The notes under the pieces were generated by a model that was not told where the DNA came from, searched no databases, and was given only the letters and a program-made list of their open reading frames with translations. From a virus: a DNA stretch of 24,410 nucleotides. Position 1 is the stretch's first letter, and each line of letters starts with the position of its first letter. The stretch lies in IMG/VR virus record IMGVR_UViG_3300025305_000135, positions 1 through 24,410 of that record; one strand, written 5' to 3'. This document shows, one piece after another, positions 1-9,226 of this stretch. Made by a program: the position numbers and the translations under genes.

Positions 1-300
1 AGGAGTGTATGGTCGTAGTCTAGACCATAGCGTAGAGCTTAGGCTGTGTACGCTGAAGTGTCCGTTAAAGTGCGGAAAGTTATCGTTTTCGAGGAGGAAC
101 TCCTTCAAAATGATAATAGAACTGCTATTGGGTACTACAGGTAGATTCTAGAGTCCCCCAATAGTGAGAACCACATAGATTTTTTTAAGAAAAGTGGTGT
201 TAACTTAAGACCGTTCACGGGGAGTAGTAGTAAGACTCGAAGGATCCTAAATGGTATGATAAGAACCGTACCGAGGCTACCCTACTACTGCTCCCCAACA
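1..300. other. Gene-free, hairpin-rich left-end region (candidate structured RNA or genome-end element)
   Basis: No credible ORF is visible on either strand. Inverted repeats follow one another: 8-14 with 23-29 (TATGGTC/GACCATA); 29-34 with 49-54 (AGCGTA/TACGCT); 61-64 with 73-76; 79-96 with 100-117 (long hairpin, listed separately); 125-132 with 157-164 (CTATTGGG/CCCAATAG); 170-174 with 194-198 (ACCAC/GTGGT); and 219-230 with 282-296 (GGGGAGTAGTAG pairing CTACTA and CTCCCC across a 3-nt bulge), enclosing a CTCG/CGAG stem (236-239 with 272-275). An 8-bp palindrome AGGATCCT lies at 241-248. No tRNA signature was found. The block precedes the early genes, so it could be the processed leader of early mRNA, a stable non-coding RNA, or part of a terminal repeat/packaging site. 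The strand cannot be fixed from stems alone, although transcription from the left would give + strand RNA. The function is unknown. Confidence 0.45.
79..117. other. Long 18-pair hairpin with GAA triloop
   Basis: Positions 79-96 pair with 100-117 around loop 97-99 (GAA). There is one C-C mismatch (90/106) and a few G-U pairs at 79/117, 85/111 and 91/105. The apical part is AGGAG-GAA-CTCCT. No T-run follows, so it is not an intrinsic terminator. In T7 the early RNAs are cut by RNase III at extended hairpins, and that is one possible role here. Confidence 0.5.
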
Positions 301-403
301 AACTACAGGAGAAAATTGTGTATGATATGAATCAAATATACTGGATGAGGATTATCATTATACTATGTATTAATCACACAGTCTATTGTTAGGAGGCACA
401 AAC
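301..403 (+). promoter_or_regulatory. A+T-rich leader before the first gene; weak promoter-like sequence
   Basis: This stretch has no ORF. TTGTGT at 316-321 followed after 15 nt by TATACT at 337-342 is a poor sigma70 match, and a second TATACT at 359-364 lacks a -35 box. AGGAGG at 391-396 is a perfect Shine-Dalgarno for the ATG at 404. A promoter is expected here or further left, but the sequence does not identify it clearly. Confidence 0.25.
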
Positions 404-589
404 ATGAGTAAGAAGTACGGAGTCTGGGTAACTGGAAAGCATAACGTAAAAGGATGGCTCATAGATGATGATGGCTACTGTACTTATGACACCCTAAGAG
501 AAGCTAACAAGGATGCTAATGAATTTAGCAACGCCTTCAGGGGAAGAGTAACAAAATACGAAGGAAGAAAGTTTAAGAAACCATCTTGA
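404..589 (+). CDS. Small early protein, 61 aa, function unknown
   Basis: The ATG at 404 sits 7 nt after a perfect AGGAGG Shine-Dalgarno (391-396), better than the in-frame TTG at 386. The product starts MSKKYGVWVTGKHNVKGWL and ends in a basic tail (GRKFKKPS). The pattern of Y/W-V-W at the start, a tyrosine after a turn and an alanine-rich helix resembles the product at 2415-2579, so the two may be distant paralogs of a small fold common in phages. It is the first gene of the early region, where T7-like phages keep host-takeover functions. No enzymatic motif is present. The stop codon overlaps the -35 box of the promoter at 586. Confidence 0.75.
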   Translation: MSKKYGVWVTGKHNVKGWLIDDDGYCTYDTLREANKDANEFSNAFRGRVTKYEGRKFKKPS

Positions 590-613
590 CATTCTTGAAA
601 TCTATGGTATAAT
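586..613 (+). promoter_or_regulatory. Host sigma70-type promoter with extended -10
   Basis: TTGACA (586-591), a 16-bp spacer, then TATAAT (608-613) preceded by TGG, which forms an extended -10 (TGnTATAAT). Both hexamers match consensus exactly. It lies in the short gap between genes 404-589 and 636-764, with the -35 overlapping the upstream stop codon. Inferred role: host RNA polymerase transcription of the early genes from 636 onward. Confidence 0.85.
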
Positions 614-635
614 GATACTATGAAAGGAAAATACC

Positions 636-764
636 ATGTTTGATCCTGACATTGATGAGGATGATGGAGAGATGATTGACTGGGATACTCTGTTACCCGA
701 ATGGCTTTATGATAATCATGGAATTTCTTGGAACATAGAGGAGGATTGTGATGACAACAGTTAA
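636..764 (+). CDS. Tiny, extremely acidic early protein, 42 aa
   Basis: The ATG at 636 follows an AAAGGAAA purine stretch and is the first gene after the promoter at 586-613. The 42-aa product has 16 Asp/Glu and no Lys or Arg. Its middle (DNHGISWNI) resembles the GISWDTIDWW segment of the next protein (751-1029) and GITWQDIEYR of 1759-2061, so it looks like a short or degenerate member of that family. It overlaps the start of 751-1029 by 14 nt, and its codons for EDCD coincide with the next gene's ribosome binding site. Strong acidity suggests possible DNA mimicry or binding to a basic host protein, which is inference only. Confidence 0.55.
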   Translation: MFDPDIDEDDGEMIDWDTLLPEWLYDNHGISWNIEEDCDDNS

Positions 765-1029
765 AGAGCATATAGAGAATCTTAATAAATACAATCCCGA
801 AGATCATGTGTGTCTAACAATATGGACGCGGGAAGATATAATATGGAGAATAGATCAGCTAGTAGGCAACGTAGAGTTTCATGACGAGGATCTTGACTGG
901 ATACTAGAACAGATGGAACATAATCATGACGCTAACTATGGTATCAGTTGGGATACCATAGACTGGTGGATTGATATAGTAGCTGAAGAGAAAAGGGAAC
1001 TAGAAAAACGGGAGAAAACCAATGCCTAA
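751..1029 (+). CDS. Acidic early protein, 92 aa, paralog of 1759-2061
   Basis: The ATG at 751 is 6 nt from AGGAGG (739-744); the in-frame GTG at 748 is too close to that site. The protein starts MTTVKEHIENLNKYN and carries NHDANYGISWDTIDWWID near its C-terminus. The product of 1759-2061 starts MTTAKEWIERLTNEY and has NHDASSGITWQDIEYRLDD at the matching place, so the two are clear paralogs. Counted composition is 23 Asp/Glu against 9 Lys/Arg, with many tryptophans. I recognise no domain. Position and charge fit a host-directed early protein, perhaps an Ocr-like mimic, but this is not shown. The stop overlaps the next start. Confidence 0.8.
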   Translation: MTTVKEHIENLNKYNPEDHVCLTIWTREDIIWRIDQLVGNVEFHDEDLDWILEQMEHNHDANYGISWDTIDWWIDIVAEEKRELEKREKTNA

Positions 1030-1501
1030 CTGGTGTCAAAACTTTGTGGATATAACTGTCTGGGGAAAAGATGATGAGGAGATTGCGAGAGAAATCTTTG
1101 ACCTTTTCTATGATAATTCCAATGGTGAGGATGAAGTAACTTTTGAAAAGGTATACCCTACGCCAGATGACCTAAGTAGTAAACAAGAATATGACTGGCA
1201 CATAAACCACTGGGGAACCAAGTGGGATGCAGCGTCTTCACACATAGAACTCGACGGTGGCTACGTAGAGATGCGGATTGAAACTGCTTGGAGTCCACCT
1301 GAAGGTGTCTACTGGGCGTTCATGAAGTGGCTAAAGGACAATGGCTATGAAGATAATGTCGATGTCGAATGGTTCTATAAAGAAAGAGGAATGAGATTAT
1401 CTGGCTGGTGTGGAGATAACACAATAGCTGAAGACTATGGTATAGTATATGATGCCCATAATTGGGAAGCTAGTATACCTGAAGAAAACAGGATAAGATA
1501 A
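1022..1501 (+). CDS. YubB ferredoxin-like (DUF1281/Api92-like) domain protein
   Basis: The 159-aa product opens with MPNWCQNFVDITVWG and contains NHWGTKWDA (about residues 62-70) and the TAWSPPEGVYWAF block (about 88-100). These are hallmark segments of the DUF1281/YubB ferredoxin-like family found in phages, plasmids and mobile elements. The family's role is not established. The start overlaps the previous stop by 8 nt, suggesting coupled translation. The charge is acidic like its neighbours. I see no catalytic residues to assign. A gap of about 50 nt follows, with a weak ATGTC/GACAT hairpin (1510-1526). Confidence 0.8.
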   Translation: MPNWCQNFVDITVWGKDDEEIAREIFDLFYDNSNGEDEVTFEKVYPTPDDLSSKQEYDWHINHWGTKWDAASSHIELDGGYVEMRIETAWSPPEGVYWAFMKWLKDNGYEDNVDVEWFYKERGMRLSGWCGDNTIAEDYGIVYDAHNWEASIPEENRIR

Positions 1502-1552
1502 CTAAAGAAATGTCGCATCAAGACATGGAAAAATAATAAGGAGGTACGGTTC

Positions 1553-1759
1553 GTGTATAATTATAAGATTACATTTGAAGAGTATTATGAAGACTATAAT
1601 AGTTTTGATGATTGTCTCAAAGCCTTTCGGATAATGCTTAATGACTTATCAAATGATAAAGATCAGATTCCACTCTACTTTAATTTTGATGAGTATGATA
1701 AAGAAGAGGAAGCTCTTCATGAGCACGGATATATAAATCGGAAAGGACAGGAACTCTGA
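1553..1759 (+). CDS. Small acidic early protein with GTG start, 68 aa
   Basis: GTG at 1553 follows AAGGAGG (1538-1544) at 8 nt, and no ATG lies nearby. The product is rich in Asp, Glu and Tyr. Its last residues (EEEALHEHGYINRKGQEL) nearly repeat the end of the next protein, because a 29-nt exact direct repeat (1703-1731 and 1996-2024) underlies both. The N-terminal 45 residues show no recognised relative. The stop TGA overlaps the next ATG (TGATG). The shared tail suggests that recombination or duplication swapped C-terminal ends between neighbouring genes. Confidence 0.75.
   Translation: MYNYKITFEEYYEDYNSFDDCLKAFRIMLNDLSNDKDQIPLYFNFDEYDKEEEALHEHGYINRKGQEL
1703..1731 (+). repeat. 29-nt exact direct repeat, copy 1
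   Basis: Identical over 29 nt to 1996-2024; it begins GAAGAGGAAGCTC and ends GCACGGATA. It encodes the EEEALHEHGY tail of the gene ending at 1759. The copies are 293 bp apart, close to the size of the gene between them. Confidence 0.9.
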
Positions 1760-2061
1760 TGACTACTGCAAAAGAATGGATCGAGCGTTTAACAAATGAA
1801 TATGATGGTGATGAGACGATTTGTGTGGTAGTGTGGAGTGCTGAGGATGTGGATACATTACTAGGCGATAGGGCTATGGAAGTTTCTCGAATCGAAATAG
1901 ATCATATGCTATCATCTATAGAACAAAACCACGATGCCAGCTCAGGTATTACATGGCAAGATATCGAGTATCGTCTTGATGATATCCTTGAGGAGGAAGA
2001 GGAAGCTCTTCATGAGCACGGATACAATACTAGAAAAGAACAAGAAGGACAGGAGTTATAA
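1759..2061 (+). CDS. Acidic early protein, 100 aa, paralog of 751-1029
   Basis: ATG at 1759 overlaps the previous stop. The product starts MTTAKEWIERLTNEY and has NHDASSGITWQDIEYRLDD near residues 57-75, matching the 751-1029 product throughout its length. It adds an acidic run of Glu and the tail EALHEHGYNTRKEQEGQEL, which is shared with the preceding gene through the 29-nt repeat. Counted charge is 28 Asp/Glu against 7 Lys/Arg. No known domain is recognised. The bounding repeats mean this gene could be gained or lost as a unit by recombination. TAATG links it to the next gene. Confidence 0.8.
   Translation: MTTAKEWIERLTNEYDGDETICVVVWSAEDVDTLLGDRAMEVSRIEIDHMLSSIEQNHDASSGITWQDIEYRLDDILEEEEEALHEHGYNTRKEQEGQEL
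1996..2024 (+). repeat. 29-nt exact direct repeat, copy 2
   Basis: Identical over 29 nt to 1703-1731. It encodes the shared C-terminal tail of the gene ending at 2061. Together the two copies bracket most of gene 1759-2061. Confidence 0.9.
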
Positions 2062-3889: not shown

Positions 3890-3919
3890 AATAATTGGGT
3901 AATGGAGTAACACTCCATA
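3890..3919 (+). repeat. 30-nt repeated element, copy A (candidate phage promoter or RNA control element)
   Basis: Matches 7687-7716 at 28 of 30 positions. The core TTGGGTAATGGAGTAACACT contains a dyad: ATGGAGT (3902-3908), AAC loop, ACTCCAT (3912-3918). It lies just after the early terminator and 17 nt ahead of the RNA polymerase start codon. It is not a sigma70 promoter: TTGGGT resembles a -35, but no -10 follows. It may be a promoter for the phage polymerase or a regulatory hairpin that hides the GGAG at 3904-3907. Confidence 0.6.
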
Positions 3920-3936
3920 TGCCACAAGGAGAATAT

Positions 3937-6384
3937 ATGATAAAATGGAATGAGTTATCTCCTGAGATACAGGAACAAAGGCTATCACTACAGTCTGCTC
4001 TTGAGGAACAGATGCTTTATGATGGTAGTAATAAATACTGGGATGAATATTCCAGAGCCTGTGATGAGGGTATACCTGAACAGCAGTTACTAGACTCTGT
4101 AGTTTTTCAGCTCGCTCCTGTCTATCAAGAATGGATAGATAATATATCTAAAAATAGAAAGACACCTGACTGGGTTCATCCCCTGTTAACTCTAGGTGCT
4201 GCTAAGATGGCTGACCTAACTGTTAGGTGTGTCATTAGAATGTGGCTCAAAGCCAGCATGTTTGGGTTTGGAAGAGATGATATCAAGAGTACGCCCCCTC
4301 TTGCACAGCATGTAGCAAGAACAATATCCAAGGAAGCTATTCATATCATCGCCTACCAGACGGCAAAGGAAACTTTCAAGGACGATTGGAGAAAGCAATC
4401 CAAGTTCATTAAGAACTGGACAGAGAAAAGATGTATTGCTTTCACAAAGAAAATGCTACAGATTCCCCGCATGACCTTGAAACAAAGAGATGACTTCGGA
4501 CACCACATGATTAGGATTGCTGAGCTGTCCTCTGTCATCCATACATTCAGGGATAAGTATCCTCACGGAAAGAACCAATGGAGAAACAAACTATTCGTCA
4601 CACTTGATGACAGTATCCTAAAAGATATACACAATAAGCACAAGTTCCTAGAAAATACGACATTATTGTATAGACCTATGGTATGTCCACCTGTGGATCA
4701 TACACTGGAACGAAGCGGAGGGTATCTCCACCACTGGATCAGGAAAGAAGTGGTCCATAGATACAGCTCAGATTATATTACTGAAGAAAGAAAGATTAAT
4801 CAACAATACTCTGAGCCTAGTCAGAAGGTTCTTGACGCAACCAATGCTATGCAAAGAACAGAGTGGACTATTAACACCAGAGTTTTTGATGTTATGAATA
4901 GCTTGTTCAAGAACAACACAAGACTATGTAATCTTCCTGCCTATTCTTTCGATGCCTTCTCCTTTGGAGATGAGTATCCTAAAGATAGTGGTAAGCAGGA
5001 GCAAGCAATCTGGTGTCAACGCAGAGAAGAAGCGTGGTCTGACTGGTTCAAGGAAGAACAAAAGAGAGGACGGATGTTGGTAAGACTACAGCTTGCTATT
5101 AATCTAACTCTAAATGGATTCTTTTATATGCCCATGACTCTGGACTTCAGAGGCAGGGGATATACTACCTGTGAACTACTTAGTTGTCAAGGTTCTGACT
5201 TTGATAGAGGCTTGATAATGTTTGCGAACGCTGTACCACAGACAGAAAGAGGAAGATACTGGATGAAGATCCATATAGCTAACCTCTTTGATATTGACAA
5301 AGTTAGTTTCAGTGACAGAGTTAAATGGTTTGATGATAATCAAGAAATGTTAAAGAGAATTAATGAAGACCCATACCAGAACAGAGAATGGATAGATGAT
5401 GCGGTCAAGAAAAACAAATCATTCCAAAGAATAGCAGCTGTCTTTGACTACTTCAGAAAAGATGGCATGACTCAGGTTCCTGTCCAAATGGACGGTGCTT
5501 GTAATGGAAGCCAACACTGGGCTGCTATCATGAGAGATCAGGATCTTGCCAAGCTTGTAAATATTATACCGAATGAAGTTCCCCAAGATCTTTATCAGTA
5601 TGTAGCAAACAAAAGCACTGAACATTTAAATGATAACAAAGAAAACCCTTGGTATAAAAAGTTTTTAGAATACTGGAAAGGAAATCTTGACAGAAAAATT
5701 ACGAAACGCAGTACAATGTGTGATGCCTACGGGCTCACGTTCTATGGCATTCAGAAGTACATGAAACTTGAGGGTCATGTGGACTGGGTTCCTCATGAAA
5801 CACAAGCAGGAGCAATCGTAGAGCTTGCAAGAGCTGTTCAAGCTGGTCTTGGTTCTGCTCTTGAGTCTGCCAATCATGGAAAAGAATATCTTAAAGATAT
5901 AACTAATATGATATCTACTATGGGACATCACTTAACATATACTGTACCAAGTGGATTCAAGGTAGTGCATAACTATACCAAGATCCGAAAGAGGAGAAGC
6001 TTAGCTGCTCTCTTTAATAATAAAGAGCTTATATTTTGGGAGGATGCTGGAGATCTTGATGCGAAAAAAGCAGAGCAAGGTATTCCACCAAATTATATTC
6101 ACTCTTTAGATGCAAGTCATTTGGTTTGCACTGTGTTTATACTGTATAATATGGGTATCAATTCTTTCAGTATGATACACGATTCATATGGATGTCACGC
6201 CCCGTTTGTGGATGACATGATAAAAATAACGAAGGAGCAATTTTATGAAATGCATCAAGTCAATCTTCTCGAAGAGCTTAAGAACCAGATCGAAGAAAGA
6301 TACAGAATTAGACTACCCAACCCCCCAGTCACAGGACAGCTTAGAATCAAGTCAGTTCTGGAATCGGATTATTTCTTCTCCTGA
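3937..6384 (+). CDS. T7-like single-subunit DNA-directed RNA polymerase
   Basis: 815 aa (T7 gp1 is 883). Catalytic motifs are in order: motif A MTLDFRGRGY with D403; the QMDGACNGSQHW segment at about 517-528, matching T7 FDGSCSGIQHF; motif B TKRSTMCDAYG with K590 and Y598, spaced as K631/Y639 in T7; PPNYIHSLDASH; and motif C MIHDSYG with D749 (T7 D812). The C-terminus LRIKSVLESDYFFS corresponds to the T7 foot LRDILESDFAFA. Start choice: ATG 3937 lies 5 nt after AAGGAG (3926-3931); an in-frame ATG at 3919 falls inside repeat A and has a poorer ribosome site. It transcribes middle and late phage genes. The gene's 3' end overlaps ORF 6245-6619 by 140 nt. Confidence 0.98.
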   Translation: MIKWNELSPEIQEQRLSLQSALEEQMLYDGSNKYWDEYSRACDEGIPEQQLLDSVVFQLAPVYQEWIDNISKNRKTPDWVHPLLTLGAAKMADLTVRCVIRMWLKASMFGFGRDDIKSTPPLAQHVARTISKEAIHIIAYQTAKETFKDDWRKQSKFIKNWTEKRCIAFTKKMLQIPRMTLKQRDDFGHHMIRIAELSSVIHTFRDKYPHGKNQWRNKLFVTLDDSILKDIHNKHKFLENTTLLYRPMVCPPVDHTLERSGGYLHHWIRKEVVHRYSSDYITEERKINQQYSEPSQKVLDATNAMQRTEWTINTRVFDVMNSLFKNNTRLCNLPAYSFDAFSFGDEYPKDSGKQEQAIWCQRREEAWSDWFKEEQKRGRMLVRLQLAINLTLNGFFYMPMTLDFRGRGYTTCELLSCQGSDFDRGLIMFANAVPQTERGRYWMKIHIANLFDIDKVSFSDRVKWFDDNQEMLKRINEDPYQNREWIDDAVKKNKSFQRIAAVFDYFRKDGMTQVPVQMDGACNGSQHWAAIMRDQDLAKLVNIIPNEVPQDLYQYVANKSTEHLNDNKENPWYKKFLEYWKGNLDRKITKRSTMCDAYGLTFYGIQKYMKLEGHVDWVPHETQAGAIVELARAVQAGLGSALESANHGKEYLKDITNMISTMGHHLTYTVPSGFKVVHNYTKIRKRRSLAALFNNKELIFWEDAGDLDAKKAEQGIPPNYIHSLDASHLVCTVFILYNMGINSFSMIHDSYGCHAPFVDDMIKITKEQFYEMHQVNLLEELKNQIEERYRIRLPNPPVTGQLRIKSVLESDYFFS

Positions 6385-8877: not shown

Positions 8878-9226
8878 CAATGCTTTTAAAGTTTATATCG
8901 CAGGACCAATGAGCGGTATGCCAATGCTTAATCAAAATGCTTTTCATGAAGCAGAAAAAAATCTTAAGAGATCTAATTTATTTAGAGAAATTATAAACCC
9001 AGCTAAGCTGGACACAAGTCAAGACATAGAAGAGCAAGAGCAACATGCATTAACGGATAAAGAATATAGAAAGAATGCAATCGCCAGAGACTTAAGTCTT
9101 CTTGTAGAATGTGATTCAATCTATATGCTTTCTGGCTGGGAGAATAGTAAGGGTGCTCAAGTAGAACATGCCTTGGCTAACTACTTGGGTCTTACTATTT
9201 TCTACCAAAGTAAGGCTACTATATAA
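8870..9226 (+). CDS. DUF4406 / nucleoside deoxyribosyltransferase-like protein
   Basis: The 118-aa product has KVYIAGPMSGMP (about residues 7-18), an NPA segment (about 43-45), and CDSIYMLSGWENSKGAQVEH (about 85-104). These are typical of DUF4406 and related to nucleoside 2-deoxyribosyltransferases, where the GPM loop and the GW...S.GA..E segment line the active site. It may modify or salvage nucleotides, but activity cannot be assigned from the sequence. The start overlaps the RusA stop by 8 nt. It belongs to the nucleotide/DNA metabolism block. Confidence 0.85.
   Translation: MYDNAFKVYIAGPMSGMPMLNQNAFHEAEKNLKRSNLFREIINPAKLDTSQDIEEQEQHALTDKEYRKNAIARDLSLLVECDSIYMLSGWENSKGAQVEHALANYLGLTIFYQSKATI

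Follow-up and report, generated by a model that had tools for sequence, protein, structure and literature searches.

The first 385 nucleotides (nt) of the window, the whole 24,410-nt stretch of viral DNA analysed (IMG/VR record IMGVR_UViG_3300025305_000135, positions 1 to 24,410), belong to a gene-free stretch of roughly 550 nt that, judged from its sequence, probably acts as folded RNA. The block probably consists of exchangeable folded RNA domains, either in an untranslated leader or in a noncoding RNA. Its structured RNA modules are new as a set and fall into no existing class; the setting is of a familiar kind. By sequence comparison, one of its hairpins (hairpin 7) is a member of a recurrent, previously unrecorded family.

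Extent of the block and its genomic setting

The block had been described in an earlier note as the left end of the DNA. Position 1 is the end of a contig and not of the genome. Another IMG/VR contig, G001 (24,138 b), matches the window without a difference over the 15 kb that the two have in common and extends 9.1 kb upstream, with window base 1 corresponding to its base 9103. In G001 the structured block begins about 160 nt 5′ of window base 1, where additional hairpins are found, and the actual unit spans roughly -160 to 385 of the window. The absence of genes was correctly noted: no credible gene lies in window 1-310, no ORF longer than 49 aa overlaps 1-385, and a tRNA/tmRNA search of the window found none. 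The accompanying argument, that a coding-dense phage rarely leaves such a block empty, is weak for T7-like phages because T7 itself opens with gene-free DNA, the first ~0.9 kb of its genome being without genes. DNA matches of window 1-2000 to isolate phages were not found, and a distant-mode search gave none of use. No homologue of the whole block was found in IMG/VR, and a conserved-element pattern taken from the upstream DNA matches only G001 and G002, the closest relative.

From its gene content, the genome carrying the block is that of a T7-like podovirus of an uncultivated clade with two RNA polymerases. PHROG/Pfam matches in the window include a primase-helicase, PolA, a class II ribonucleotide reductase, portal, scaffold and capsid proteins, along with a single-subunit RNA polymerase (RNAP1). 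Isolate phages are only distantly related (best RNAP1 identity ~29%), and no RNAP1 relative was present among the genome contigs searched. The relatives compared are 80 related loci taken from IMG/VR; L002 and L010 are loci of G001, L006 and L007 are those of G002, L022 is that of G003, and W stands for the window plus G001. The second divergent T7-like polymerase, RNAP2, is 639-665 aa long, barely detected by Pfam, and 55% identical between the G001 and G002 phages. A profile search places it in about 12 clade lineages (W, G002, L025, L028, L030, L034, L036, L046, G003/L022, L082, L050 and L053), the match in L053 being weak (E 1e-4). A 103-aa gene follows RNAP2 in W, G002, L025, L028, L030, L034 and L036, and also occurs in L076.

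The surroundings of RNAP2 have further features of their own. In G002 a single ORF of ~5,200 codons (10413-26024; L006/L007, minus strand) separates RNAP2 from a lysozyme-like gene; a weak RNase_H_2-like match is the only part of it recognised. G001 and G003 have a very long counterpart that likewise ends 5′ of RNAP2. Between the giant gene and RNAP2, L010 3700-5320 (~1.6 kb) has few small ORFs and contains the strongest folding in the genome, a 300-nt segment at 4953 of L010 with a z of -11.6. Another structured element lies between RNAP2 and the block (L010 8035-8158; L006 7369-7493, minus strand), is 79% identical between G001 and G002, and has the sequence pattern GGAGCTGTTGG..CCAACCATC..CAGCTCC.

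The first small early ORF, which has distant homologues in other clade members, follows the block (Table 1). The DNA that separates the block from this 61-aa gene showed no terminator, and neither a T-run terminator nor a promoter was found within the block. A perfect host-type early promoter lies downstream, after the 61-aa gene, and in G002 a host-type promoter likewise follows the gap. Upstream of the block, a search for phage-promoter-like motifs and a strict sigma-70 scan gave no convincing promoter. The motif AATAATTGGGTAANGGAG precedes RNAP1, RNAP2 and other operons, in many cases with a hairpin after it, and is a candidate phage-polymerase promoter; it is absent from the block. Hairpin promoters of the N4 type, considered owing to the second polymerase, are an unlikely fit, the hairpins here being far longer. 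The early region also holds paralogous small genes (phrog_10258; window 748-1029 and 1759-2061) and an exact 29-bp direct repeat (window 1703-1731 and 1996-2024).

Table 1. Coordinates of the block, its predicted structures, neighbouring features and RNAs of related loci
Feature	Location	Strand	Details
Gene-free structured block	window 1-385	+	3′ two-thirds of segment L010 8940-9487 (contig G001)
Terminator closing the preceding (upstream) gene/operon	L010 8889-8909		G001, 5′ of the extra hairpins
Hairpin 1	window 8-29	+	TATGGTC/GACCATA (8-14/23-29), 7 pairs; pair probability >0.6 for 9-14/23-28
Hairpin 2	window 29-54	+	AGCGTA/TACGCT (29-34/49-54), 6 pairs; in MFE, absent from P>0.5 list
Hairpin 3	window 61-76	+	TCCGT/GCGGA (61-65/72-76); in MFE and pair-probability list
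Hairpin 4	window 79-117	+	79-96/100-117, 17 pairs (11 + 6, C/C mismatch)
Hairpin 5	window 124-165	+	124-136/152-165, 12 outer pairs; inner helix 139-141/147-149
Hairpin 6	window 171-197	+	CCAC/GTGG (171-174/194-197), weak; not above P 0.5
Hairpin 7	window 215-300	+	outer 219-232/283-296, inner 246-258/267-276; 3′ flank CCCC-AACA
Possible long-range helix	window 41-49 with 376-384	+	closes block just 5′ of ribosome-binding site; probability only ~0.5
First small early ORF	window 391-589	+	61 aa from ATG 404; AGGAGG (SD) at 391-396
Host-type early promoter, perfect	window 586-613	+	TTGACA-16-TATAAT
Motif AATAATTGGGTAANGGAG	window 3890, 7687, 14969; L010 3695; G002 3513, 10417, 27134, 56760		
RNAP1	window 3895-6384		PHROG/Pfam
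RNAP2	L002 833-2752		upstream of block in G001; Pfam RNA_pol E 1.8e-10
RNAP2 counterpart in G002	L006 8239-10233	-	
manA-related RNAs	L034 6038-6248; L030 3049-3276; L025 5696-5925; L036 3498-3727; L050 2945-3157		
Permuted tRNA-like element (YrlA-like)	L022 19223-19320; L013 605-701		two variants, two strain versions of one phage
H-type pseudoknot module	L034 6341; L036 3761; L030 3362; L025 6055; L043 997 and 1103		

Folding of the block and the hairpin 7 family

The block folds better than chance. On the plus strand, window 1-310 reaches -104.2 kcal/mol, whereas 100 dinucleotide shuffles average -77.9 ± 5.0 and none of them folds as low (z -5.3). The earlier note's observation is confirmed. 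Folding prefers the plus strand: the minus strand of the same region has a weaker z of -3.8, and a re-run of window 1-300 with other shuffles gives -7.25 (plus) and -3.78 (minus). The full segment, L010 8880-9420, has a z of -5.4. As the DNA of this phage is in general somewhat structured (mean z of -1.7, sd 1.8, for 223 segments of 300 nt in 33.5 kb) and window 1-300 ranks 8th of the 223 (z -5.85), with seven others folding equally well or better, the folding of the block is strong, though not unique in the genome. No H-type pseudoknots above shuffles were found in the window block.

The seven consecutive inverted repeats reported previously are all present between window 8 and 296. Hairpins 1 and 2 both claim base 29 and compete with each other, and hairpin 2 also competes with the long-range pairing. 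Hairpin 4 has pair probabilities of at least 0.89 and a z of -4.85 alone (75-121); in hairpin 5 they are at least 0.83, with a z of only -2.1 alone (120-170). No relatives of hairpins 1-6 were found, and since relatives exist for hairpin 7 only, the first six rest on single-sequence folding.

Hairpin 7 has a z of -4.96 when folded alone (210-301). Its relatives, detected by blastn, nhmmer and a covariance model, lie at L039 4583-4669 and 4398-4474, L059 28-111, L046 9416-9499, and L051 349-432 and 473-557; individually they score modestly, with E values between 0.0018 and 0.15 when 91 kb are searched. As L046 and L051 derive from near-identical phages, these represent three lineages besides the window. 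Because MAFFT misplaces a 3-nt stem change between hairpin 7 and L039, pairs in the stem were counted on the covariance-model alignment, which favours the structure of the window. In this alignment the 12 outer pairs are kept in the window, L059, L051 and L046, and both L039 copies keep them wherever letters exist, two positions being gapped in one copy. The outer helix changes from G-C to A-U at two pairs and carries G-U or U-G at others, with no A-C in the plus-strand copies. The family stem, of the GGRRAGUAGUAR/CUACUACUYCCC type and followed by RACA, is kept by compensation.

In W and L039 members of the family occupy the leader gap of the early genes, and in L046, L051 and L059 a site just 5′ of RNAP1. 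They are multicopy in L046, L051 and L039. The copies of L046 and L051 are in tandem immediately 5′ of RNAP1, with a repeated ACAATCTAA linker between them. A pattern search with the inner motif matches only G001 and the L039 phage. A separate element, module A (L013 46-117), also differs in location, as it lies upstream in L013, while ~90% identical copies with a rebuilt stem lie downstream of RNAP1 in L027 and L072.

RNA content of the corresponding gap in relatives

The block has a fixed position in the clade. About a dozen relatives have ORF-poor, usually well-folded DNA at the corresponding position, which lies 5′ of the early genes and follows RNAP2 and, if one can be detected, the 103-aa gene. 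Such a gap after RNAP2 and/or the 103-aa gene is seen in W, G002, L025, L028, L030, L034, L036, L076, G003, L082, L050 and L053. Its RNA content is lineage-specific: some gaps hold manA-related RNAs, others a second covarying RNA, hairpin arrays or an element resembling Y RNA.

The manA RNA (RF01745) is a structured RNA of marine phages (PMC2864571). An RNA common to L034, L030, L025 and L036 (A9) has seven two-sided covarying pairs (0/500 shuffles) and carries H-type pseudoknots; its 3′ end is a terminator-like hairpin in L034, L030 and L025. Against a manA cut-off of 55.2 bits, the L034 copy falls short at 44.1 (E 3.5e-10), and the L053 gap holds a manA RNA that exceeds it at 79 bits. A clade model built from A9 (R2) recovers the L053 RNA and another in L050, and the manA-related copies other than that of L034 came through this model. 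While manA occupies the orthologous gaps of L053 and L034, the window block does not match it. Membership was rejected, with no manA match to E 10 (window 1-600, L002 4380-5000) and at most 8.6 bits for R2 against the window, over one hairpin only.

The second covarying RNA (A10) is common to L013, L076 and L082, with seven two-sided pairs (0/500 shuffles). G003 carries a Y-RNA-like element that matches YrlA (RF02553) at 37.6 bits, below the cut-off of 69, and the L053 gap carries a tmRNA-like domain (51 bits); these elements share the locus and are absent from the window. In G002 the gap is just ~200 nt; it contains a single long hairpin and gave no match by blastn. As separate observations, L053 2560-3840 is ~1.2 kb without credible genes, where the manA RNA and tmRNA-like domain are accompanied by further T-arm-like sequences and a duplicated ~75-nt module. 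An H-type pseudoknot module, TAGCAGGG(G/A)TGCG..CTGCTA..CGCA(C/T), recurs with compensatory changes and is multicopy in L043 and L025.

No Rfam 15 family reaches its gathering score in the window or the upstream region, and at E 10 only chance matches appear (window 1-600, L002 4380-5000), the best being mir-761 and snoR1. GOLLD and ROOL are ornate phage RNAs of several hundred nt whose function is not known (PMC12286853). The block resembles them as a probable ornate phage RNA of several hundred nt, but it is not beside tRNAs, its content varies between close relatives, and their models give no match to the window at gathering score or E 10. A homo-oligomeric RNA particle is a further hallmark of GOLLD/ROOL. 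The earlier suggestion of a new structured RNA is supported in part, by the plus-strand folding, the lack of an Rfam match and the compensated hairpin 7 stem. The idea of a single new ncRNA is too simple; the block looks like an island of exchangeable modules, because relatives hold different RNAs at the same place.

Competing readings of the block

The preferred reading, held with somewhat less than even confidence, is that the block makes up most of a ~550-nt untranslated region that serves the first of the small early genes, or the first few of them, as a structured 5′ leader. It is favoured because no terminator precedes the first small gene and a possible long-range helix closes the block; the upstream operon, by comparison, is closed by a terminator. 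Lying where the RNAP2/late operon meets the early genes, the region would be transcribed rightward, presumably through the block with no internal transcript end. Separately folding hairpin modules would be exchanged between phages and between intergenic sites, and the hairpins would shape, stabilise or be processed from the leader RNA and may thereby affect stability, processing or translation. The processed early leader put forward earlier is possible under this model. The setting recalls T7, whose left end is gene-free and whose early genes have RNase III sites between them: in both, the early genes are preceded by untranslated DNA, and early transcripts carry, or here would carry, hairpins. 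It differs in its array of elaborate hairpins and clade-specific modules. Counted against a leader are the convincing promoter missing upstream, the short and unmatched G002 gap, the seven segments that fold as well, and the terminator-like RNA ends in L034, L030 and L025, which suit a free-standing RNA better. Such an RNA or RNAs, acting in trans as proposed for GOLLD/ROOL, is an unlikely reading, kept in view because the L034-group terminators argue for it. Long ornate folds, pseudoknots and Y-RNA-like or tmRNA-like elements in orthologous gaps (the latter in G003 and L053) also agree with it, as do the phage precedents (PMC12286853), but the window block itself has neither a terminator before the first gene nor a pseudoknot above shuffles, and no Rfam match.

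The recurrence of modules at different loci could also mean that, at the borders of operons, the hairpins insulate transcription or serve as cassettes for shuffling. According to the part of PMC4503421 that cites Arbiol 2010 and Comeau 2014, promoter early stem-loops (PeSLs) of T4-type phages are small stem-loop modules at several intergenic sites of related phages, and the hairpin 7 family likewise recurs at two kinds of site. Two strain variants of G003 are 99.7% identical across the block and diverge immediately afterwards, and early promoters follow the block and the G002 gap. Nevertheless, the hairpin 7 module contains no promoter, the nearest consensus promoter (586) lying beyond a gene, and the block lacks both promoter and T-run terminator. 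DNA upstream of 85 clade promoters is not more structured than random (mean z -1.13 vs -1.48, p 0.97), a result on which a general hairpin-promoter link was rejected; the insulator or cassette reading is improbable. Somewhat less probable again is a DNA-level element, such as a genome terminus, terminal repeat or packaging/concatemer-processing structure (cruciform or single-strand hairpins). T7-type genome ends lie between the late operon and early promoters, as the block does. The terminase large subunit of G002 is phrog_38, and 6 of 15 contigs of at least 60 kb end 4.6-8.3 kb upstream of RNAP1, though contig ends may equally reflect strain variation. Against this stand the plus-strand bias of folding and the G-U pairs, without A-C, of hairpin 7 on that strand. 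The earlier proposal of a terminal repeat or packaging structure is left without direct support because the sequence continues in another contig and no copy of the block occurs elsewhere in 33.5 kb of the phage, though assembled terminal repeats collapse. Least probable of all is that the block is drifting intergenic DNA which folds well by chance. The structured genome background and the lack of relatives for six of seven hairpins fit this, but no shuffle in 100 folds as well, the hairpin 7 stem is conserved in divergent phages, and covarying RNAs stand at the same place in relatives.

A broader reading is put forward tentatively and with some doubt: one syntenic site may swap unrelated structured RNAs that all serve one common early-infection function, the window having the hairpin-array version. 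The types exchanged would, with the same reserve, be manA-like RNAs with pseudoknots, the second covarying RNA, Y-RNA-like or tmRNA-like elements, and tandem hairpins of the new family. The manA-related RNAs, among them the L034 copy that scores below the Rfam cut-off, would widen the manA family. Most knowledge of structured phage RNAs comes from single families, and one site with different RNA families in relatives offers a natural comparison for a role in early infection.
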